21,857 nucleotides of DNA, from positions 1-21,857 of the IMG/VR virus record IMGVR_UViG_3300010885_085038. One strand, written 5' to 3'. Below the pieces are notes generated by a model, which made no database searches, was not told the DNA's origin, and worked only from the letters and a program-made list of their open reading frames with translations. The DNA comes from a virus. Each line of letters starts with the position of its first letter. The first letter of the stretch is position 1. A program made the translations under genes and the position numbers. Shown in pieces: positions 1,296 through 11,748 of the stretch.

Positions 1296-2711
1296 TCAAT
1301 CCTTCGTTTCAAATGGGATGTCAAACGGGCAATCTTTAGCAAGGTCTTCCGTGGCCACAACGGGGTCTATGGAGAACCTCAATTTCATCTGCTTCCCGCC
1401 ACGAGCAGGACTCAGAAATCTGGAGAACAAAAGGTCGTGTTCAATAGGGTCAACGTCGGTTATGCCAAGGCAGTAACAGGTAAGGGCTCCCACGGCAGAT
1501 CCACGCCCAGGGCCCACAGCCTCCGAGCCGTCCCCGTATCCGAGCAACTGCCTTGAAACTCTTCTAGCTTCGTCCGTCATCATCTTCTGGATGATGAAGT
1601 AGGACGCGAACCCCTTGCCGCAGATGAGGTCGTACTCCTCTTTCACCCGACCCATGTAAACAGGGTCGCCCTTCGGAAGGAGCCTCTTCTTGTAGCCGGC
1701 CGATATGAATTCAAGAAGTTTCTGGTCTGCATCTTCTATGTAGGGGAGTTTGACCGAGCGATCCAGCTTGACGCCCTTGGCTCTCTCGGCGACCCTGACT
1801 GTATTTCTCTTGGCCTCTTCAAAGAACTCGAGCGGGATCGCATCGCTGTAGTCGGAAGCCCACTTCTCGTTGAGTTCCTCCTCGCTCTTCATCCAGAGGT
1901 TCGTGTCTTGCAGTTCAAAGAGGTCGGCGGTCTCCTCCCTGTCCATCTTCTCCTGAATTTCCTTGAGGGTCTTTCGGGTCTGCACCATGAGCATGAGGCG
2001 CTGCATCTTGCTGTCATCTCGCTGGGCGTAATGGCAGTCTTGAGTCAGGATTACAGGAAGGCCATACCTGTCATGAGCCCTCATAATAAACTGGTTGTAA
2101 GGCTTCTGCTTGCTGAAGTCGAGGAGCATGATTTCAAGGAAGAAGTTGTCCTTCCCGAACATGCCGATGTACTTCTCCACCATGGCGAATCCGGCATCGT
2201 CGCCCCCGCGCTCAAACGCCTGCCCGATTTCGGAGTTGTAGCAACAAGAGGTAAATATAATTCCCTCCTTGTGCTTCAAGAGCATCTCGTGGTTGACCCT
2301 AGGCTTGTAATAGAAGCCCCTCGTCCAAGCGGCGGAAGAAAGGTTGACGAGATTGCTGTATCCCTTCTCGCTCGTGGCAAGAGCAAGAAGATGATAGCTC
2401 TTGCCCAATTTCTTCCTCTCTTCGGGACTCATATCCTCCGTGTGGTCAGCCATCTTCTCGCCCGGCTTGAGCTCGGGCTGCATGGGCTGAACATAGAGCT
2501 CGCAACCGAATATGGGCTCCCTGCCGTACTCCTCGCACGCCTGTATCTGGCGGGGGATGGCGCCCATGGAGCCGTGATCGGTGACACAAAGGAAATTCTG
2601 GTTTATCTCTTTGGCGCGCTTACTGTACTCATGTACAGTGCCAAATCCATCTAGGACGGAAAAATCGGTGTGTAGATGAAGATGTTCGAATCCGACAATT
2701 CTTGATTTCAC
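1296..2711 (-). CDS. dnaE: DNA polymerase III alpha subunit, N-terminal part only (PHP + first half of palm)
   Basis: The protein is about 471 aa against roughly 1,100-1,200 for full DnaE. The PHP domain comes first: HLHLHTDFS near the N-terminus, then DHGS, CELYV and TQDCHY, so its metal ligands look intact. The early palm follows, with the VGPGRGSAVG loop and LFSRFLSPARGG. Exactly where DnaE normally reads PDFDxDF, the sequence changes to about 35 unrelated residues ending FDIPFETKD and stops. The two catalytic aspartates of that motif, the rest of the palm, the fingers and the beta-binding regions are absent. No other frame downstream restores them. I chose the GTG start at 2711 (AGGAG 11 nt upstream) because the longer ATG start at 2789 overlaps the preceding gene. 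Probably one half of a split polymerase; a stand-alone PHP nuclease is the alternative. Confidence 0.88.
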   Translation of the reverse strand: MKSRIVGFEHLHLHTDFSVLDGFGTVHEYSKRAKEINQNFLCVTDHGSMGAIPRQIQACEEYGREPIFGCELYVQPMQPELKPGEKMADHTEDMSPEERKKLGKSYHLLALATSEKGYSNLVNLSSAAWTRGFYYKPRVNHEMLLKHKEGIIFTSCCYNSEIGQAFERGGDDAGFAMVEKYIGMFGKDNFFLEIMLLDFSKQKPYNQFIMRAHDRYGLPVILTQDCHYAQRDDSKMQRLMLMVQTRKTLKEIQEKMDREETADLFELQDTNLWMKSEEELNEKWASDYSDAIPLEFFEEAKRNTVRVAERAKGVKLDRSVKLPYIEDADQKLLEFISAGYKKRLLPKGDPVYMGRVKEEYDLICGKGFASYFIIQKMMTDEARRVSRQLLGYGDGSEAVGPGRGSAVGALTCYCLGITDVDPIEHDLLFSRFLSPARGGKQMKLRFSIDPVVATEDLAKDCPFDIPFETKD

Positions 2712-2743
2712 GGTGCATTTTTCTCCTTCCTGGCTAGCGCGAT

Positions 2744-2962
2744 CTAACCATTCTGACACTGACGACCTTCTAGTCCATTTCGCCACCATTCCCTGCGTCC
2801 ATTGATTGACTCCACGGCGGGGCCGTCGTGGCGGTGTAGTTTGCCATCAAGCCTCCATTCAACAGTACCGTCTTCGTACTCAGTGACTTCATACTCACTG
2901 GCGGGAATTACAGTCGCGATGATGGGCAAAGAAATCGACTTGATGAAAGTTCTTCTTTCCAT
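2744..2962 (-). CDS. Small protein with Tat-like signal and DGPA-type repeat
   Basis: The protein is 72 aa. The N-terminus MERRTFIKSISLPIIATVIPA has twin arginines followed by x-F-I-K and then a hydrophobic stretch, which resembles a Tat signal peptide (S/T-R-R-x-F-L-K). The second half, DGTVEWRLDGKLHRHDGPAV followed by GRREWWRNG, matches the W-x-x-x-G-x-x-H-R-x-D-G-P-A repeat common in small phage and bacterial proteins of unknown function. Only about one and a half repeat copies are present. It lies between the 92-aa gene ending at 2972 and dnaE, on the same strand. The Tat resemblance may be chance in so short a protein. Confidence 0.7.
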   Translation of the reverse strand: MERRTFIKSISLPIIATVIPASEYEVTEYEDGTVEWRLDGKLHRHDGPAVESINGRREWWRNGLEGRQCQNG

Positions 2963-3260: not shown

Positions 3261-4826
3261 TTATGTCATCTCGTTAATCAGAGACCCCAACAAAAACCCG
3301 GCGAAGACTGCGGGCGCGTATCGCTCGACCTTTTGAAATCCAGGCGGATTGTGGCGTGAACACATGATTCCCGAGACTACGGAAGAAGATATCTTACTAG
3401 AATCCCCATCCATGAACAAGGCCACCGCCCTGCCGATAGCATCCACTAGATCATGAGGATGAATGCAGTCATCGGACTTGTGAATCCAAGCATCCTGAAG
3501 ATTGGTCGCATTCAAGGAATTAACTATGTCTCCCGACTCCACGATGGCCTTCATGGCCTTCGCCACGCAAGACTTCCCTCCACGAACCAGACGAATCTCA
3601 TCAAGCAGATCGGTGCCGAGCGGTATCTCCTGAATTTTTTTGGAGCTTCCAAAGAAGAACTTGATCCTCCACTTCGGGACTCCTCCTTCGAACGAGTTTC
3701 CAAGTTCGAACCTCATTCCGCTCTTGAACCTGAGGTTCGGGATAGCAGACCTGAATTTTCTGTCGGGGGCGTAGCGGCACCCTACCTTTTCGGGCTTTGT
3801 TTGGATCGGAACTGCGGTGGGCGGAGCGAAGTTCGATATCGCCTCGGAAGGCTTGGGAAGGTCGGAGGACTCCGTCCCAAGCATCGCGTGGGCTATGTAA
3901 AAAGTCAGAAGGGGAGGAACGGCGTTGCCGATCATCTTTAACTTCTGGGCGTGGCTGTCCCCGAAAAACTGATAATTTATCGGAAAGGACTGAAGGCAGG
4001 CGCTTTCCCTCAGCGTCGGCCTGCGGAACCCCCCAGGGGTTTCGACCACTATGCTCTCCCTAGAAACCCTCGTGGAGGTTGCCGTCACCGTCCTGGCGGG
4101 TTTTTCCAAAGAATCCGGGAAGGACATGTTGTTGTAGACCGGATGATAGGTCTTCAAATCCTTGTTGAGGCGTCGCTCCTCGGGGGAAAAGGGAGCCTCC
4201 TCCTCATGATCCACCAGATCGGCCCTAAGGCGTTTTGTGCCGTAGATCGGGTCAACCACGGCGTCTGAAGACAAAGCCTTTAAAACGCTTCCTAGAGTGC
4301 GAGATGGGGTCTCGTCCCTGAAGGACATGAGCCTGTCGAAGTCAAAATTGCCCATGATGCACCGCTGGCGACGTTGCGGGACGCCCCATTCGCTAGCGTC
4401 GACGACAACGAGGGTTGGGTCAAGCGGGCAGAAGCGGTGCAGGGAGCCACCTTGGTTAAGCTCGCGACACACTATGCTCGCGAGACGGGGCACATTTTCC
4501 ATGGCCCAAAAGCGGGGCTTTACGGCGGCAACGATCTCAAGGAATTTTTCGACATCCTTCAGCCCCTCACTTATGTCTCCCTTGCCTCCACGGTTCGCAA
4601 GGGAAAAATGCGTGCACGGGGGACTTCCGACAACCACATCCACCTTCGGGGCAGTGGCCGGGTCGAAAGTTCTTATATTCAGGCTCTCAGCCTTGTGCCG
4701 ATTGTTATTGAAGTTGGTGAGGTTGGCCTTGCTCCACCACTCGTACGAGGAGACGACATTGATCCCCGCCATCTTGAGGCCAAGAGACCAGCCTCCAATT
4801 CCAGAATAGAAATCAATAGCTTTCAT
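3261..4826 (-). CDS. C5-cytosine DNA methyltransferase with about 200-aa C-terminal extension
   Basis: The protein is 521 aa. C5-methyltransferase motifs are in order: I (IDFYSGIGG, 4-12, SAM binding), IV (GSPPCTHFS, 67-75, catalytic Cys71), VI (MENVPR, 109-114), VIII (QRRQR, 151-155), IX (RESACLQSFP, 273-282) and X (GNAVPP, 300-305). It should methylate cytosine C5 in a specific site; the target-recognition region between VIII and IX is fairly short. After motif X there are about 200 residues I do not recognise, ending in a hydrophobic segment (YAPAVFAGFLLGSLI). No restriction endonuclease gene is adjacent, so an orphan phage methylase that protects phage DNA or modulates expression is likely. 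There is no ribosome-binding site before the ATG; a -10-like TAGTAT ends 9 nt upstream. Confidence 0.95.
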   Translation of the reverse strand: MKAIDFYSGIGGWSLGLKMAGINVVSSYEWWSKANLTNFNNNRHKAESLNIRTFDPATAPKVDVVVGSPPCTHFSLANRGGKGDISEGLKDVEKFLEIVAAVKPRFWAMENVPRLASIVCRELNQGGSLHRFCPLDPTLVVVDASEWGVPQRRQRCIMGNFDFDRLMSFRDETPSRTLGSVLKALSSDAVVDPIYGTKRLRADLVDHEEEAPFSPEERRLNKDLKTYHPVYNNMSFPDSLEKPARTVTATSTRVSRESIVVETPGGFRRPTLRESACLQSFPINYQFFGDSHAQKLKMIGNAVPPLLTFYIAHAMLGTESSDLPKPSEAISNFAPPTAVPIQTKPEKVGCRYAPDRKFRSAIPNLRFKSGMRFELGNSFEGGVPKWRIKFFFGSSKKIQEIPLGTDLLDEIRLVRGGKSCVAKAMKAIVESGDIVNSLNATNLQDAWIHKSDDCIHPHDLVDAIGRAVALFMDGDSSKISSSVVSGIMCSRHNPPGFQKVERYAPAVFAGFLLGSLINEMT

Positions 4827-5399: not shown

Positions 5400-6086
5400 T
5401 CACTTGATCTTCCTGCCCACTCTGATTTTTGACAATGTTTCAAACCCCTTCTCGCCAAATATTCCGTCGGCGAAACCATAATACACAGCCTCATCCGGCA
5501 TCAAGTACCAGTCTCCCGCCTGCCGGATCCTCTGGTCTATGAAGGTCATGGCCCTCTTCAGGCTGAACTTGCGCTCCTTAAAGTACTTTCCAAGGATTGC
5601 CTTCTCGGCGAATATCTGAAGCATGCGGCGGCAGGACTTTTCATTCTGGTCGACGGCGGACTTGACCGCCATCGTGGTGTCGTCCACCGCTATAGATCCA
5701 TGATGAATCATTAGCTCGCAGTCGGGCATGAGAACGCGCCTGTCGGCGGCTTGGAATACTATGCCGCTCATGCTGCTTGCCTGGGCGTAGCCCATTATCG
5801 TGACCGGGGCCTTGCCGAGCCTCATCGCGTTGAACATCGCCATGCCGTCCGACCAAGAACCACCGATGGTGTGCATGTGGACGAGGATGTTCTGGCTGTT
5901 CTGGAGCCCGAGTATGTGGAGATTTTTTATGAAGGAGGTGGCCATCCTGTAGTCCACCCCAGGCTCCTCGTCGGCATCCACGTGGCCGTGAAGATATATC
6001 TCCCTAGTGAGATGGTTGATGTGGTGATTGTGTATCTCGCTTATCAACTGCTCGACAGAGACGTTTCTTTTGACGATCGAGTTCAT
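5400..6086 (-). CDS. clpP: ClpP-family serine protease
   Basis: The protein is 228 aa. The catalytic triad can be aligned with bacterial ClpP: Ser105 in GYAQASSMSG, His128 in LMIHHGS, and Asp192 in GDWYLMPDEAVYYGFAD, which parallels the D-x-F-M-S-A-x-E-A-x-x-Y-G-L-x-D of ClpP. The 70-77 stretch (HMHTIGGS) corresponds to the NSPGG strand-turn that shapes the active site. I chose the ATG at 6086 (GGGAG about 5 nt upstream) because the longer in-frame extension to 6314 overlaps the preceding gene and is not ClpP-like. In phages, ClpP-fold proteases may mature proheads or act on host proteins. The neighbours here are not capsid genes, which favours the second. It lies downstream of prkA-yeaH-spoVR on the same strand. 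Confidence 0.92.
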   Translation of the reverse strand: MNSIVKRNVSVEQLISEIHNHHINHLTREIYLHGHVDADEEPGVDYRMATSFIKNLHILGLQNSQNILVHMHTIGGSWSDGMAMFNAMRLGKAPVTIMGYAQASSMSGIVFQAADRRVLMPDCELMIHHGSIAVDDTTMAVKSAVDQNEKSCRRMLQIFAEKAILGKYFKERKFSLKRAMTFIDQRIRQAGDWYLMPDEAVYYGFADGIFGEKGFETLSKIRVGRKIK

Positions 6087-6139
6087 AAAGCTCCCGGGAA
6101 GGCCTAGGCATACATATTTAGACCTGCCGGAAACAAAAG

Positions 6140-6166
6140 AAAAATGCGGAAAAAGTGCGGAAAAAA
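6140..6166. repeat. Short A-tract/GCGG direct repeat between clpP and the gene before it
   Basis: On the + strand AAAAATGCGG is followed directly by AAAAAGTGCGG and then another A-run. It fills part of the 82-bp gap between the stop at 6169 and the clpP start. There is no stem, so it is not a standard terminator; on the minus strand it is a pyrimidine-rich tract after a stop codon. Confidence 0.5.
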
Positions 6167-6168
6167 GC

Positions 6169-6429
6169 CTATTTTTCGAACCAAATTGTATATTTAACCT
6201 GCTTGCTGTTCTCGGAAACCGACCACAGAAATGTGTCGCACTCACTGATTTTGGAGGCAAAATCGAGGACGAAAGAGGTGGTGTCCTCAGAAACCCCGCC
6301 TGAGGGGTCGACATCCTGCGTCTTCACCCTGACGACCCTGACGGGCTTTTGAATGTCGTCGGGCCTCAGCAGGAGAAAAAGATTGAATATCAAGGAGCAA
6401 ATCAAGAGATACGTGGCAAGGTTCTTCAT
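6169..6429 (-). CDS. Small membrane-anchored or exported protein
   Basis: The protein is 86 aa. The N-terminus MKNLATYLLICSLIFNLFLL is one uncleaved-looking hydrophobic helix or signal anchor, followed by a soluble portion with no family I recognise. I chose the ATG at 6429 because it immediately precedes the hydrophobic segment; another in-frame ATG lies 18 nt upstream (6447). No Shine-Dalgarno is visible, but a TAGATA -10-like box ends 5 nt before the ATG, which suggests a leaderless transcript. It sits between spoVR (29 bp away) and clpP (82 bp away). It could tether ClpP-related activity to the membrane, but nothing in the sequence shows this. Confidence 0.65.
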   Translation of the reverse strand: MKNLATYLLICSLIFNLFLLLRPDDIQKPVRVVRVKTQDVDPSGGVSEDTTSFVLDFASKISECDTFLWSVSENSKQVKYTIWFEK

Positions 6430-6457: not shown

Positions 6458-8050
6458 TCAGCCATGGTCGAACTCGTCCCTCGGCATCACTTCAACAATG
6501 AGTTCGTCGGTCTTGCAGGTGTAGACGAACTCCTTCCCGTCCTTGTCCCTTGTGGAAAGGTAGACGTCTTTCTTCCAGAGATGCCTGATTGATTCCAAGA
6601 CGGGCCTCACATATGCGTCGTGGAGAGGGCGGCCGTGCCACGCATGCTGAAGGAACATTATTCCCTTGTTCCTGTGGTTGTGGTCAACCAACCTTATCTC
6701 GGGGAGGCCCCCGTTCATGTGCCTTCCGACGAGCTTGGCCTTGATTTTTGCATGATCCTTGCTCTCTATCTTGTACTCGCCGTTTGGATACTTCTTCCAC
6801 TCGAAGAACTCGTACTTGTCGCAGAACTCGGGGGTGAAGAACTCCATGATCAAAGTGAGGTCGTTGTAGAACTTCCTGACCTCGAACACCTTGTCGTGGC
6901 CAAGGCCGAGATTCTTGTCCCAGGCCTCCCTTTCTTTTATGTCATGACACTCATCCCACTCCGAACCGAATTTGCCCTTGTCCCATCGCTCCTCTATGTC
7001 GCAGAGAAGATTGAATCCGAGCTTGTAGGGGTTCATTGAATACTTGCCCCCGAGCACCCCCATCTTGTGCTTCGCGTACTCTATGATCCCGGAACTGTCG
7101 TGCTGTTGTCCGAGTCCGGCAAGGCCTTGTTTTGATATAATGTGGTAGTCGACCCAGCTGGCCATTCCCTCATTTATTGTCTTCGTCATCCTCTGGGGGG
7201 CGAAGTACATGCTCTCCTCGTAGAGCATAGAAACGATGTCGCTCTCCCAAGGCTTGAGGGGGGCGTTGTCCCTGATGAAGCCCATGATGTCCTTGGTCGA
7301 GCCTACGAAAAGATCCAGATACTCAGCCGCCTCAATCTTCTCTATCTGCTCGTTCTGCCTCTTGATCCACTCGGCGGTGTTTATGTACCCCTCCATGTAG
7401 TCATGACCGTCCTCCACCTTGAGGCGGCCGGGATGGCGGTACTTGCGATTGTCCTTTGGTATGTTGTCCTTGTACTTCTTGGGCTCCCAGGCCTTGGAGG
7501 GGTCTATGAGCGTCTCGATCCTTAGCACATGGTCTATGAATTCGGTGACCCTCTCCTTGCCCCACCGGCTCATGTACTTCTTGATCCTCGTGCCGTGGTT
7601 CGCCAGCTCATTCATCATGTTCTGGCTAGTCTGCGAGAAATAGATGTTGTTCTTGAAGAAGTCCGCGTGGCCGAGCGCGTGGGCGACAACGGTCACGTTG
7701 TCGAGGAGCGTGTTGGAGTCTAAACAATAAAGGTAACATGGATTCGTGTTCACGACCATTTCATATATTCTGTGCATCCCGTGCATGTATCCACGCTGGA
7801 GTTCCTCATATTCCATCCCCCACTTCCAGTGCGGGTACCTGACGGGGAAACCTCCATAGGCCGCTATCTCGCTTATCTCGTCGTAGGTAAGCATTTCAAC
7901 AACGGTCGGAGGGAAATCACAGCCGAACTCACTCACCTTTCTAAATATATCGGGAAGGAGTCTCTTGAGGTCTTCTGGCACGGACACCCCGGGGATCGTG
8001 TTGTTCCCCATGAGCACTGGCGATCCGAGCATGAATTTGTTCTGGTTCAT
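6458..8050 (-). CDS. spoVR: SpoVR family protein (YcgB-like)
   Basis: The protein is 530 aa, close to the 500-odd residues of bacterial SpoVR/YcgB. Family hallmarks are clear: WKWGMEYEELQRGYMHGMHR near residues 75-95, AHALGHADFFKNN at 123-135, NEGMASWVDYH near 290 and MNPYKLGFNLL. SpoVR was named for its role in Bacillus spore cortex formation, and its biochemical activity remains poorly defined. The conserved His/Asp/Glu residues suggest metal binding, which is inference. It starts 4 bp after the yeaH stop, with TAGGG overlapping that stop as a possible ribosome-binding site, so translation is coupled. It completes the prkA-yeaH-spoVR order seen in bacterial operons. There is no sign of decay. 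Confidence 0.97.
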   Translation of the reverse strand: MNQNKFMLGSPVLMGNNTIPGVSVPEDLKRLLPDIFRKVSEFGCDFPPTVVEMLTYDEISEIAAYGGFPVRYPHWKWGMEYEELQRGYMHGMHRIYEMVVNTNPCYLYCLDSNTLLDNVTVVAHALGHADFFKNNIYFSQTSQNMMNELANHGTRIKKYMSRWGKERVTEFIDHVLRIETLIDPSKAWEPKKYKDNIPKDNRKYRHPGRLKVEDGHDYMEGYINTAEWIKRQNEQIEKIEAAEYLDLFVGSTKDIMGFIRDNAPLKPWESDIVSMLYEESMYFAPQRMTKTINEGMASWVDYHIISKQGLAGLGQQHDSSGIIEYAKHKMGVLGGKYSMNPYKLGFNLLCDIEERWDKGKFGSEWDECHDIKEREAWDKNLGLGHDKVFEVRKFYNDLTLIMEFFTPEFCDKYEFFEWKKYPNGEYKIESKDHAKIKAKLVGRHMNGGLPEIRLVDHNHRNKGIMFLQHAWHGRPLHDAYVRPVLESIRHLWKKDVYLSTRDKDGKEFVYTCKTDELIVEVMPRDEFDHG

Positions 8051-8054
8051 ATTT

Positions 8055-9239
8055 CTACCCTAGAGCCGACCAGTAGTTCTCGACCTTCTTTTCCTTGCCG
8101 AGAAGTTCCGTTATTGCGTTCTTGATCTGCTTGTCCCTCTCCTCGTCCGACATCTGTCCAGCGACCTGAGTCGTCTTTACATTCTTGGACTTGCAGTGGC
8201 CGTCCACATACTGCTTCAGGCTGCCGTCGTACTGCCATGGAAGTATCTGAGTTATGCCTACCATATTCACGACCTTCGGGCCCAGTTCTTCCTCAAGCAC
8301 CTTCACGAAGTTGAGGTTGTCGCCGTCCCAGTTCTCCCCGTCGGTGAAGTAGAAGAGGTATATGTTCCACTTGATGGGATTGAACCTGTTCTCGAACATC
8401 TTGGAGATGAGCTTGAGGGCGGTGGAGCAAGTCGTGCCCCCGCCGTACCTGTACTTGTAGAACTTCTTCTCGTCCACCTCCTTGGCCACGGTGTCGTGCC
8501 AAACGTAGACGCGCTCCACCTTGTCGTAGAACTTCCTTATCCAAGCGTCTATCCACCAGCTCATGTCGCTAACGATGTCGCACTTGGTCTGATCCATGCT
8601 CGCAGAGCCGTCACGGGCGAAGAATATCACCGCGTTGTTGGAGGGTATCTTGATCTCGGTGAACTGCCTGTACCGCTTGTCGCTGTTTATGGGCGTTATC
8701 AGGCGAACGGGGTTGGCGAAACCGGGTATCTGGTGGAGTTTGTTTATTGATCCGTCGGCGCATTGCCTCTTGAGGGCCTGCTTTAGGGTCCTGGCGTTGT
8801 GCCTGAGGCTTTCGGGGCCGACGAGCGAGATGTTGTTGTACTTCTTGATTATATAGTCGTAGGTGTCGCTCGGCTTGGGCTTCATGTCGGGCAGTTCGAG
8901 CTCGTCCTGCATGAAGTTCAGAACCTCATCCAGGTCCACGGCGATGTCTATGCCGTCGCCAGCGTCCTGGCCGGCCTTGTTGCCCTTCCCCTGCCCCTTC
9001 TGGTCGTCCTTGCCTATGACGTCGCCCTGCTCGCCCTTACCCCTGCCGATCCCCTCGTCGCTCTCCCCGTATACTATGTGGGGAATGTCGATCTTGGGAA
9101 TGGTGACGACGATCTTGCCGTTCTTGCCACGGTTGCGGAAAATCGTTCCGTTCTTGATGTACTTCCTGAGTTCCTTGCGTCTTATGCCGCCATAGACGTC
9201 ATGGAAGTCCTTGTGGTCGGAATCTATTCTTCTAGGCAT
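8055..9239 (-). CDS. yeaH: DUF444 / YeaH family von Willebrand A-like protein
   Basis: The protein is 394 aa, a little shorter than E. coli YeaH (about 427). It opens with the DUF444 signature (RRIDSDHKDFHDV). A Gly/Lys-rich low-complexity linker follows at about 62-97, then a vWA domain with a complete MIDAS: D210-G-S212-A-S214, the GGGTTCS loop near 267-272, and D300 in YFTDGENW. YeaH proteins work with the PrkA AAA+ protein, presumably as a metal-dependent adaptor in the way vWA proteins pair with MoxR-type AAA+ proteins; the pairing is known genetically and the mechanism is inference. It starts 12 bp after the prkA stop and ends 4 bp before spoVR. Confidence 0.97.
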   Translation of the reverse strand: MPRRIDSDHKDFHDVYGGIRRKELRKYIKNGTIFRNRGKNGKIVVTIPKIDIPHIVYGESDEGIGRGKGEQGDVIGKDDQKGQGKGNKAGQDAGDGIDIAVDLDEVLNFMQDELELPDMKPKPSDTYDYIIKKYNNISLVGPESLRHNARTLKQALKRQCADGSINKLHQIPGFANPVRLITPINSDKRYRQFTEIKIPSNNAVIFFARDGSASMDQTKCDIVSDMSWWIDAWIRKFYDKVERVYVWHDTVAKEVDEKKFYKYRYGGGTTCSTALKLISKMFENRFNPIKWNIYLFYFTDGENWDGDNLNFVKVLEEELGPKVVNMVGITQILPWQYDGSLKQYVDGHCKSKNVKTTQVAGQMSDEERDKQIKNAITELLGKEKKVENYWSALG

Positions 9240-9251
9240 TTTGTCTCCTTG

Positions 9252-11327
9252 CTACTCCTCGGAGGCGTCGCCCCTCGCGAAAATGCTTGCCACATACTGG
9301 AGAACGTCCGTGGCGCTCTGTTCGTTGTATCCATACTGGGATATCAACCTCTGCTTCACGGCGTCGATCTTCTCCTGTATCTCCTTGTCCACGACCGTCG
9401 CCCCCTTGATGTTCAGGGCGGAAAGCTTGATGTGATCCTTGGTGTCCTCGAAGAGCTTGGACTCGAGAGCCTTCTTCAGCTGCGGGTTGCTGTCCCACTT
9501 GAACTGCTTGCCATTGTGGGCGAGGTGGCCTATGAACCCGGCGAGCATCCTCCTGAAGTCGTCCGCGCCGACCTCGGGGATGTCGATCTTCTCCTCGATC
9601 GATCGCATAAGCCTCTCGTCCGGCTCCTGATCCTGCTCGGTGAACGGGTTCCTTATCTTTGTCCCGTTGATGTAGGCCATGACGTTGTCTATGTAGTTTC
9701 CGCAGAGCCTCTCGACGGCATGCTCGTCGCCGACAAGTGCCTTCTGAACCTCGGTCTTCAATATCTCGTCCAATTCCTTCCTCGCTAGGTCGACACATGC
9801 GACAAACTTAGATTTGTCCTCTTGGTTGTCGAAGAGGGACTGATGGTCCACTCCCGACTTGAGCTCGTTGAGGACCATGAAGAAATTGATGTAGTCATAG
9901 TGCGAGCTGAGGCAATTGCTGATCTTGTCCTGAGTGTATCTGCAGCTTATGCCCGTCATGCCTTCGTCCGGGTACTTGTCGCGGAGTTCCTTGACGGAGT
10001 CCTCGGTCCAGCCAGGAAGCGACCTGCCGTCATACAGCTTGGCCTTCTCCACAAGGCCTATCTTCCCGTCCTTGTCCTCATGGAGCCTCGTGAGAACCGA
10101 CCACAGGGCCGCGATCTCGAGCGTGTGGGGGGCTATGTGCTGCCTTATTCGATCCTTGTTGTACTGATGCTCAAGTATCTTAAGCTCCTCGCTCCACCTC
10201 AAAAGGTAGGGCACGTCGATCTTCACGGTTCTGTCCCTCAAGGCCTCCATCGTCTGATCGCTCTTGAGCCTGAGGAACTCGGGGGAGTTCGTATGCCCGA
10301 TGAGCACGGTGTCCACGCCGACCTGCGGGAACTTCTTTGGCTTTATCTGCTTTTCCTGGGACGCGCCGAGAAGGTCATACAAGAACTCCTTGGCGAGCTT
10401 GAGAACCTCTATGAACTCGACGATGCCTCGGTTCCCCACGCAGAACTCACCGTCAAAGTTGAAGGCTCGAGGGTCGCTGTCGGTTCCGAAGTGGGGAAGC
10501 TTGCCCCAGTTAATGTCGCCGGTGAGCTCTGTGCTGTCTTGGTTCTTCTCGTCCTTGGGCTGGAACGTCGCTATGCCGCAACGGTCGGCCTCGCTGTGGG
10601 TCTTTCGAATCACGCGGATGTGGTTCTCTATGACCTTTCCCAAGTCGCCTTCGTTCCTGAGGAGAAGCTCCTGCATAAACTTCTTCGACCTTGGGTCTAG
10701 TTCTCCTTCTACGCTCAACTTGTAGAGGGAGGTTCTTTCCTGCTCAGACGTTTGATTGAGCAGGATTTCGTTCAGTTCTCCGACGACATCCTTCCTGATG
10801 TTCGGCGGGAGGAGCTTGAGCGGATCCTCACGCATGGGAGACTCGTCCTCCGCCTGCGTATAAATGCCGTCGTCCTTGCCGGTGGGAAGGTTTACCCACT
10901 TGAAGGTGTACCAGGCGCCCTTTTCGGTGAGCGAGTACTTCTCAAGGCCCTTCTTTATGCAGCGAAGTATCGTAGACTTGGAGCTTCCGACCGGCCCGTG
11001 GAGAAGGAGTACGCGACGCTCGGGTCCGTAGCCTCCGGCTGCGCCCTTGAAGAACTGCACAAGCTGGTGAAGGGTCTCGTTCAGTCCGAATATGGGCGTG
11101 TCGGAGCCCTCGAAGAACTTGTAGCGTACGTAGGTCTTCCTGTACCTCTCGACCTTGTCGGCGCCCTCGGCCATGATCATATCGTAAAGATATTGATATG
11201 CGGTCCGGGCAAGCCTTGGGTTCTCATATACAAGATCAAGGTACTCGGAAAAGGACATCTCCTCGTTGAGTTTCTTGAACTTGTCCTTGTCGAACTTAGA
11301 AGAGATTCTTTGAAGCACGTCTCGCAT
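9252..11327 (-). CDS. prkA: PrkA family AAA+ protein kinase/protease (YeaG-like)
   Basis: The protein is 691 aa (E. coli YeaG is about 644). It has an N-terminal PrkA segment, Walker A GPVGSSKST at about residues 111-119, the diagnostic GTFQPKDEKNQDSTELTG-like stretch (here ATFQPKDEKNQDSTELTG), NFDGEFCVGNRGIVEFIEVL, sensor-1 VLIGHTNSPEF and MEALRDRTVKIDVPY with a candidate arginine finger. A C-terminal domain once described as kinase-like follows. PrkA was called a serine kinase and has more recently been proposed to be an ATP-dependent protease. I chose the ATG at 11327 (AAAGGA about 6 nt upstream) over one 15 nt earlier that lacks a site. It is the first gene of the prkA-yeaH-spoVR unit and has its own good promoter. 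Confidence 0.97.
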   Translation of the reverse strand: MRDVLQRISSKFDKDKFKKLNEEMSFSEYLDLVYENPRLARTAYQYLYDMIMAEGADKVERYRKTYVRYKFFEGSDTPIFGLNETLHQLVQFFKGAAGGYGPERRVLLLHGPVGSSKSTILRCIKKGLEKYSLTEKGAWYTFKWVNLPTGKDDGIYTQAEDESPMREDPLKLLPPNIRKDVVGELNEILLNQTSEQERTSLYKLSVEGELDPRSKKFMQELLLRNEGDLGKVIENHIRVIRKTHSEADRCGIATFQPKDEKNQDSTELTGDINWGKLPHFGTDSDPRAFNFDGEFCVGNRGIVEFIEVLKLAKEFLYDLLGASQEKQIKPKKFPQVGVDTVLIGHTNSPEFLRLKSDQTMEALRDRTVKIDVPYLLRWSEELKILEHQYNKDRIRQHIAPHTLEIAALWSVLTRLHEDKDGKIGLVEKAKLYDGRSLPGWTEDSVKELRDKYPDEGMTGISCRYTQDKISNCLSSHYDYINFFMVLNELKSGVDHQSLFDNQEDKSKFVACVDLARKELDEILKTEVQKALVGDEHAVERLCGNYIDNVMAYINGTKIRNPFTEQDQEPDERLMRSIEEKIDIPEVGADDFRRMLAGFIGHLAHNGKQFKWDSNPQLKKALESKLFEDTKDHIKLSALNIKGATVVDKEIQEKIDAVKQRLISQYGYNEQSATDVLQYVASIFARGDASEE

Positions 11328-11364
11328 CTTATTTCCTTTCATTTAGACTGCGCCGGCCGTTATT

Positions 11365-11393
11365 ATTCTAGTTTCAAATTGATTAAAAATCAA
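11365..11393 (-). promoter_or_regulatory. Sigma70-like promoter for prkA-yeaH-spoVR
   Basis: On the minus strand TTGATT (11388-11393), a 17-bp spacer and TAGAAT (11365-11370) form a good promoter. The -10 context is TTGAAACTAGAATAAT, nearly the same as the promoter before the glycosyltransferase at 17346. The 5' leader to the ATG at 11327 would be about 30 nt and contains AAAGGA. Confidence 0.65.
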
Positions 11394-11400
11394 TGCCAGA

Positions 11401-11748
11401 CTACTTGACTTCTCCGAAATGCTTTCCGCCCGATACATCATCTATCTTTCTGTACGGTTCGTTGCCTACGCTCGAGGCCTTTTCGGCGGCCTTCCTTTGA
11501 TCCCTTGTGCCCCCCTTCTTGTCCATATTGTATTTGTAGCGGTAGTCATGGCCTTTGCTCTCGCTGTTCCACCTGTCCGTGCCGACCGGGTTGGAAAACT
11601 TGACCGAAGGGGCTCCCATGATCTCCTCCTTCACCTTGGAATTGCACTTGGGGCACTTCGCCGCCTTCACTTCCTTGTCCTTTTCGGCCATCTTGGTCCA
11701 CACGTCGTAGACCTCTCCGCACTTGCACTGAAATTCATATCTGGGCAT
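11401..11748 (-). CDS. FmdB-type zinc-ribbon protein
   Basis: The protein is 115 aa. It opens MPRYEFQCKCGEVYDVWTKM, the classic FmdB/regulatory-protein zinc ribbon, with metal ligands C8-x-C10 and C32-P-K-C35. The rest is Lys-rich and probably disordered, ending in VSGGKHFGEVK. Such proteins occur in many phages and bacteria without a firm function; nucleic-acid or protein binding is likely. Its start overlaps the end of the preceding gene by 14 bp (that gene ends at 11735), so the two are probably translationally coupled. It ends just upstream of the prkA promoter. Confidence 0.85.
   Translation of the reverse strand: MPRYEFQCKCGEVYDVWTKMAEKDKEVKAAKCPKCNSKVKEEIMGAPSVKFSNPVGTDRWNSESKGHDYRYKYNMDKKGGTRDQRKAAEKASSVGNEPYRKIDDVSGGKHFGEVK

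Follow-up and report, generated by a model that had tools for sequence, protein, structure and literature searches.

The analysed window, a whole IMG/VR virus record of 21,857 bp, carries a complete PrkA-DUF444-SpoVR operon, and comparison with related contigs establishes this operon as a core gene set of a jumbo myophage clade. The explanation that we favour overall, at a probability of about 0.5, is that the window derives from a T4-like jumbo myophage whose core operon encodes an AAA+-vWA-SpoVR machine for control of the host stress state. In bacteria, the same three-protein set is used in starvation survival and spore formation.

The three genes are adjacent on the minus strand, with gaps of 12 bp between prkA and the DUF444 gene and 4 bp between the DUF444 gene and spoVR. 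The first-pass annotation of the window had described a complete operon with exactly these gaps and with intact Walker A, MIDAS and SpoVR AHALGHADFF motifs. The gene coordinates (6458–11342 overall), the Pfam scores and the conservation of key residues across relatives are in full agreement with that description. The start of prkA was placed by that annotation at an in-frame ATG at 11327, and a longer call begins at 11342. The features of the operon are as follows:

9252–11342, minus strand: PrkA-family AAA+ ATPase, 696 aa, start likely at 11342 or 11327
10971–10997, minus strand: Walker A motif GPVGSSKST, PrkA residues 116–124, key residues invariant in 16 aligned phage PrkA proteins
8055–9239, minus strand: DUF444 (YeaH/YhbH) vWA protein, 394 aa
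8598–8612, minus strand: MIDAS motif DGSAS, DUF444 residues 210–214, completed by T269 and D300
6458–8050, minus strand: SpoVR, 530 aa, gluzincin-like fold predicted
7667–7681, minus strand: HALGH motif, SpoVR residues 124–128, both His residues (H124, H128) with at least 95% conservation in phage and bacterial proteins
7166–7174, minus strand: NEG motif, SpoVR residues 293–295, at least 95% conserved, with an intein site of the relatives just after it (A297/S298)

All three proteins score far above the curated Pfam cut-offs. PrkA matches AAA_PrkA (PF08298; E-value 6e-77, 259.5 bits) and the PrkA C-terminal family (PF06798; 5e-78, 262.8 bits) against a cut-off of 25 bits. The DUF444 protein matches PF04285 (2e-64, 218.8 bits; cut-off 27), and SpoVR matches PF04293 (7e-101, 338 bits; cut-off 27) as well as SpoVR_C (3e-7, also above its curated cut-off). 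In PHROGs, the three proteins are covered by viral families 22605, 19072 and 35217, which have no assigned function. The window PrkA scores 206.3 bits with the NCBIfam equivalog NF011999 (E. coli YeaG type), below the threshold of 576, and on these profile scores it is classed as a member of the PrkA family and not as a YeaG equivalog.

A solved homologue of PrkA (PDB code 9xip) matches the window protein with an E-value of 4e-205; no solved structure of SpoVR or DUF444 was returned by the sequence search. The AF2 model of the DUF444 protein adopts a vWA fold (Z 15.8), and the MIDAS residues D210, S212, S214, T269 and D300 are invariant across relatives, so that Pfam score, fold and metal site all agree with membership in DUF444. 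For SpoVR (AF2 model, pLDDT 85), a zincin (gluzincin)-like fold is predicted on a match of moderate strength: a Foldseek search gave no strong hit (best E-value 0.019), and the top row in VIA-align is a putative lipoprotein at Z 10.6. The next rows are mostly gluzincin-type metallopeptidases, namely aminopeptidase N (Z 8.8), M32 carboxypeptidases (8), ACE (7.5) and DPP III (7.0), and enzymes of families M1, M32, M2, M3, M9 and M49 make up most of the leading rows. The signature H-[AV]-x-G-H ... N-E-G-x-A is conserved in phage and bacterial SpoVR. The protein lacks the catalytic motif HExxH, as the corresponding segment reads HALGH or HVYGH with the Glu replaced by Ala or Val. These two segments, the most telling of the conserved ones, look like an HExxH motif that has lost its catalytic Glu and like the distal Glu ligand. 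In E. coli YcgB the segment reads HACYGH, one residue longer than HxxxH, and the spacing of the metal site is therefore not universal in SpoVR. A YcgB H127Y substitution reached high frequency in an evolved population under iron selection (PMC10044975); it alters the latter of the two His residues in the conserved SpoVR motif (E. coli ycgB, L223:710–2242). Purified PrkA of B. anthracis showed no protease activity, and it is disputed whether PrkA itself acts as a protease (PMC13001217).

The proteins of the 21.9-kb window include no capsid, portal or terminase protein, and tail sheath and S77 prohead protease are likewise absent. These genes are located on larger contigs of relatives that bear the same operon, which reach 436 kb, in addition to the huge phage LR756511.1 (595 kb). 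A Gp23 major capsid protein scores above cut-off on 8 of 15 operon-bearing contigs, versus none of 14 control genomes; tail sheath (7/15), T4-type terminase (5/15) and T4 portal (5/18) genes were found as well. The head cluster of one relative runs from terminase through an intein-bearing portal gene and the S77 prohead protease to Gp23. Because relatives with the operon carry Gp23, portal, prohead protease, terminase and sheath genes, the clade is assigned by gene content to the T4-like jumbo myophages, of which the window would be a fragment. The phage setting postulated in the first-pass annotation is thereby confirmed, the search that it advised for capsid, terminase and tail genes has located them in the relatives, and its alternative of a bacterial chromosome fails in view of the virus record and of structural genes that accompany the same operon.

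Scans of viral contigs with PrkA and SpoVR gave 117 loci on about 90 contigs. PrkA, DUF444 and SpoVR lie on one strand and in the same order at every locus with space for all three (112/112), and the five exceptional loci are all truncated by contig ends; the co-occurrence of the three families in viral sequences, suggested earlier as a check, is thus consistent throughout. The dN/dS values against close relatives, where dS is unsaturated and estimable, are 0.04–0.08 and point to strong purifying selection. As the operon is intact, fixed in order and under selection, the phages evidently need its three products. Quick trees place the viral proteins in a single group for each of the three families (SH-aLRT 99 for PrkA, 100 for DUF444 and 87 for SpoVR), which indicates that the three travelled together. 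The trees suggest an ancient acquisition of the operon from bacteria and its inheritance as a unit since then. Viral homologues are mostly about 60–90% identical to each other, versus at most 55% to bacterial proteins among the matches listed. Among these matches, the best bacterial PrkA proteins (52–55% identity) come from Myxococcota, Planctomycetota, Bdellovibrionota, Chloroflexota and other groups, and mostly belong to operons of the same order. A recent transfer from a single bacterial genus is rejected because of this low identity and the spread over several phyla; trees nested in one bacterial genus had been named at the outset as an outcome against a phage operon, and all three proteins belong instead to a viral clade that excludes the bacteria sampled.

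The operon is flanked in the window by the following features:

11401–11748, minus strand: FmdB-type zinc-ribbon protein, 115 aa (Zn_ribbon_8, 9e-9; TIGR02605), upstream neighbour of prkA
11365–11393, minus strand: candidate sigma-70-like promoter upstream of prkA, TTGATT-17-TAGAAT, 9/12 match
5400–6314, minus strand: ClpP-like serine protease (CLP_protease, 3e-18) downstream of spoVR, conserved part from about 6086

Several neighbours are kept around the viral operon: the zinc-ribbon gene upstream of prkA at 106 of 118 loci, HldE at 97, the N-terminal region of DnaE at 75 and the ClpP-like protease at 59. The ClpP-like protein is probably not a prohead protease, since the head cluster of the relative described above already has the S77 enzyme. 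The genes reported earlier around the operon are recovered by Pfam or PHROG matches: ThyX, an N-terminal DnaE piece, a TnsA-like/gp4-like nuclease with a match to a PHROG family of head-closure proteins, and a dNMP kinase with a weak Pfam match and a good PHROG match. The DnaE frame of the window (1296–2789, 497 aa) stops after the PHP domain and the beginning of the polymerase domain, as do those of L004–L008 and L018. In distant relatives the DnaE frames reach about 1,180–1,195 aa, and the part missing in the subclade of the window may have been split off or lost. A C5-cytosine methyltransferase of 521 aa with an additional C-terminal part is encoded at 3261–4826, and is present at 7 of 118 related loci.

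The claim of a good promoter for the operon stands only in part. Within the window, two sites of such quality were found versus 3.2 in shuffled sequences, which is at chance level. Across the clade, 26 of 66 non-redundant relatives have an exact TATAAT in the 120 bp that precede prkA, versus 7.8 in controls (maximum 15). The T4 late promoter TATAAATA was found upstream of prkA in 0 of 70 cases; the four capsid genes that were checked lack it as well, which makes it a poor marker.

The three products most likely constitute an AAA+-vWA-zincin-like machine, which in the course of infection would remodel or process proteins, with either the host stress state or the virion as its target. PrkA would provide an ATP-driven AAA+ ring, and the DUF444 vWA protein would dock clients or SpoVR via the MIDAS metal site. 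SpoVR, with its predicted zincin fold and modified HAxGH...NEG metal site, would act as a metal-dependent effector or be itself a remodelled client. The phage most likely expresses the operon from host-type promoters. The operon would keep the infected cell productive and stress-adapted during prolonged infections of hosts that are slow or starved, and would not serve as a sporulation trigger. Control of the host state is favoured over virion assembly, at about even odds overall, and is supported by the gene context, the distance to the capsid gene and the upstream TATAAT. In the clade of the window, the operon is placed amid replication, nucleotide and sugar genes, and roughly 30–190 kb separate it from the capsid gene where one contig has both. 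The moderate strength of the zincin match, the missing catalytic Glu of SpoVR and the inactivity of pure B. anthracis PrkA as a protease count against this explanation.

The strongest competitor, though unlikely, is a virion-assembly machine in which PrkA, the vWA protein and SpoVR act as chaperone, co-chaperone and (pseudo)metallopeptidase in the folding or processing of structural proteins. The module adjoins terminase, portal and minor head genes in phages phiYS40 and Lalka8, and in the L037/L038 lineage the operon is about 13 kb from the capsid gene. Both placements fit a virion role and speak against the host-state reading, and a three-part architecture of the same kind has a precedent in the MoxR-vWA-metallopeptidase system of group 2.2 jumbo phages (PMC7824862). 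However, the capsid distance and the replication and nucleotide genes around the operon in the clade of the window do not favour such a role, the phages already have a prohead protease and a portal of T4 type, and the -10 sequence upstream of prkA is sigma-70-like. Less probable still is counter-defence or host shut-off, in which the AAA+ machine and SpoVR would extract or destroy proteins of host defence or of the host stress response, perhaps together with the ClpP-like neighbour. AAA+ unfoldase chemistry and the recurrence of that neighbour downstream of spoVR would suit this function, but at about half of the loci, truncated ones included, no ClpP-like gene was seen near the module, and no defence context was seen. 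The joining of a bacterial operon to a phage contig by misassembly or host contamination is rejected for the clade and has a negligible probability, as the loci are consistent across many metagenomes and mostly nearer to each other than to bacteria, form a viral clade in the trees and share contigs with structural genes, even though Enterobacter phage LAU1 (L121, 30.8 kb) has a record that opens with host-type yeaG-yeaH, perhaps leftover flanking host DNA.

In-frame inteins interrupt 18 of 74 distinct viral SpoVR genes (one or two inteins each), 2 of 72 PrkA genes and none of 71 DUF444 genes, which marks SpoVR as an intein hotspot. The affected SpoVR genes include L018, L028, L030, L033, L034, L036, L058, L081, L096 and others. 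Two sites are used, one before a conserved T-[NS]-P near residue 101 and one between NEGxA and S (297/298). Group I introns are not needed to explain these genes, because the inserts are in frame and contain Intein_splicing and LAGLIDADG domains. The PrkA inteins (L003:5373–8789 and L008:5539–8790) do not share a site: they are inserted near residues 292 and 301, within the conserved FNFDGEF/NRG stretch. A T4-type portal gene on the 340-kb contig of a relative (L219:10798–13365) is also interrupted by an intein. The NEGxA|S allele is found in seven bacterial SpoVR genes of Chloroflexota, Planctomycetota and Myxococcota (L139, L148, L154, L156, L196, L199 and L202), with up to about 43% identity over about 410 residues. 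SpoVR of the 636-kb megaphage LR756504.1 (L122) has a short intein (NEG|C...HN|CATF) two residues off this allele. The common allele suggests that phage and bacterial spoVR exchanged DNA, or shared one homing element, at the presumed active site; in the papers searched, no mention of an intein together with SpoVR was found. A wider proposal, to which we give somewhat less than even odds, is that SpoVR is a metal protein of zincin fold whose active site has been rewired, that the AAA+-vWA-zincin machine has been domesticated repeatedly and independently by jumbo phages as a core infection function, and that homing inteins mark its active site in phages and bacteria.

Phage carriage of the module is already visible in public records. 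Whether it had been described in phages was left open by the first-pass annotation, and the answer is divided: parts are annotated in phiYS40 and RsoM2USA, and in the papers searched nothing was found on the core status in a jumbo clade, repeated independent acquisition, a zincin-like SpoVR or a shared intein. The jumbo clade offers an independent selective setting for finding the task of this module, which is widespread in bacteria. Virome surveys have catalogued SpoVR as a 'sporulation' AMG (PMC8940887); if SpoVR is zincin-like, the labels 'sporulation gene' and 'serine kinase' in such surveys and in phage records are misleading.

The bacterial operons (E. coli yeaGH and ycgB; B. subtilis prkA, yhbH and spoVR) comprise the same three Pfam families and motifs, and those of Planctomycetota, Myxococcota and other bacteria have the same gene order as the phage operon. 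The phage proteins differ in sequence, with at most 55% identity for PrkA among the matches listed and about 35–42% for SpoVR, score under the NCBIfam equivalog cut-offs and form their own clade. A close counterpart is LR756511.1, which has all three genes in identical order (PrkA 67%) and shares the DnaE, HldE and zinc-ribbon neighbours, but is larger and unannotated. The isolated Thermus phages phiYS40, TMA, Lalka8, phiLo and MN1 cluster PrkA, a DUF444-like vWA protein and SpoVR or an unnamed substitute gene; in the phiYS40 record, SpoVR and a serine kinase are annotated with the DUF444-like gene adjacent. Their modules differ in order (vWA-SpoVR-PrkA), in identity (about 30%) and in adjoining terminase and portal genes. 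As these phages are cultivated, they make the task of the module testable. In the Ralstonia jumbo phage RsoM2USA, SpoVR and PrkA are ORF28 and ORF30, two genes apart (PMC8504454). Because its sequences are of proteobacterial type (SpoVR 56% identical to Vibrio SpoVR), a separate acquisition is probable. Megaphages of about 635 kb carry versions distant from that of the clade; their PrkA shares 61–65% identity with Enterobacter YeaG, and their SpoVR about 53% with E. coli YcgB. The module is thus directly seen in no fewer than three separate lineages of phages, and probably in four. Outside the PrkA family, the MoxR AAA+ and vWA-metallopeptidase pair of group 2.2 jumbo phages, for which a role in virion assembly was proposed, follows the same logic of AAA+, vWA and metallopeptidase-type domains, but uses MoxR in place of PrkA, has the peptidase fused to the vWA protein and belongs to other families (PMC7824862). 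NorQD is a further AAA+/vWA pair, and the vWA proteins matched by the YeaH model include its NorD.
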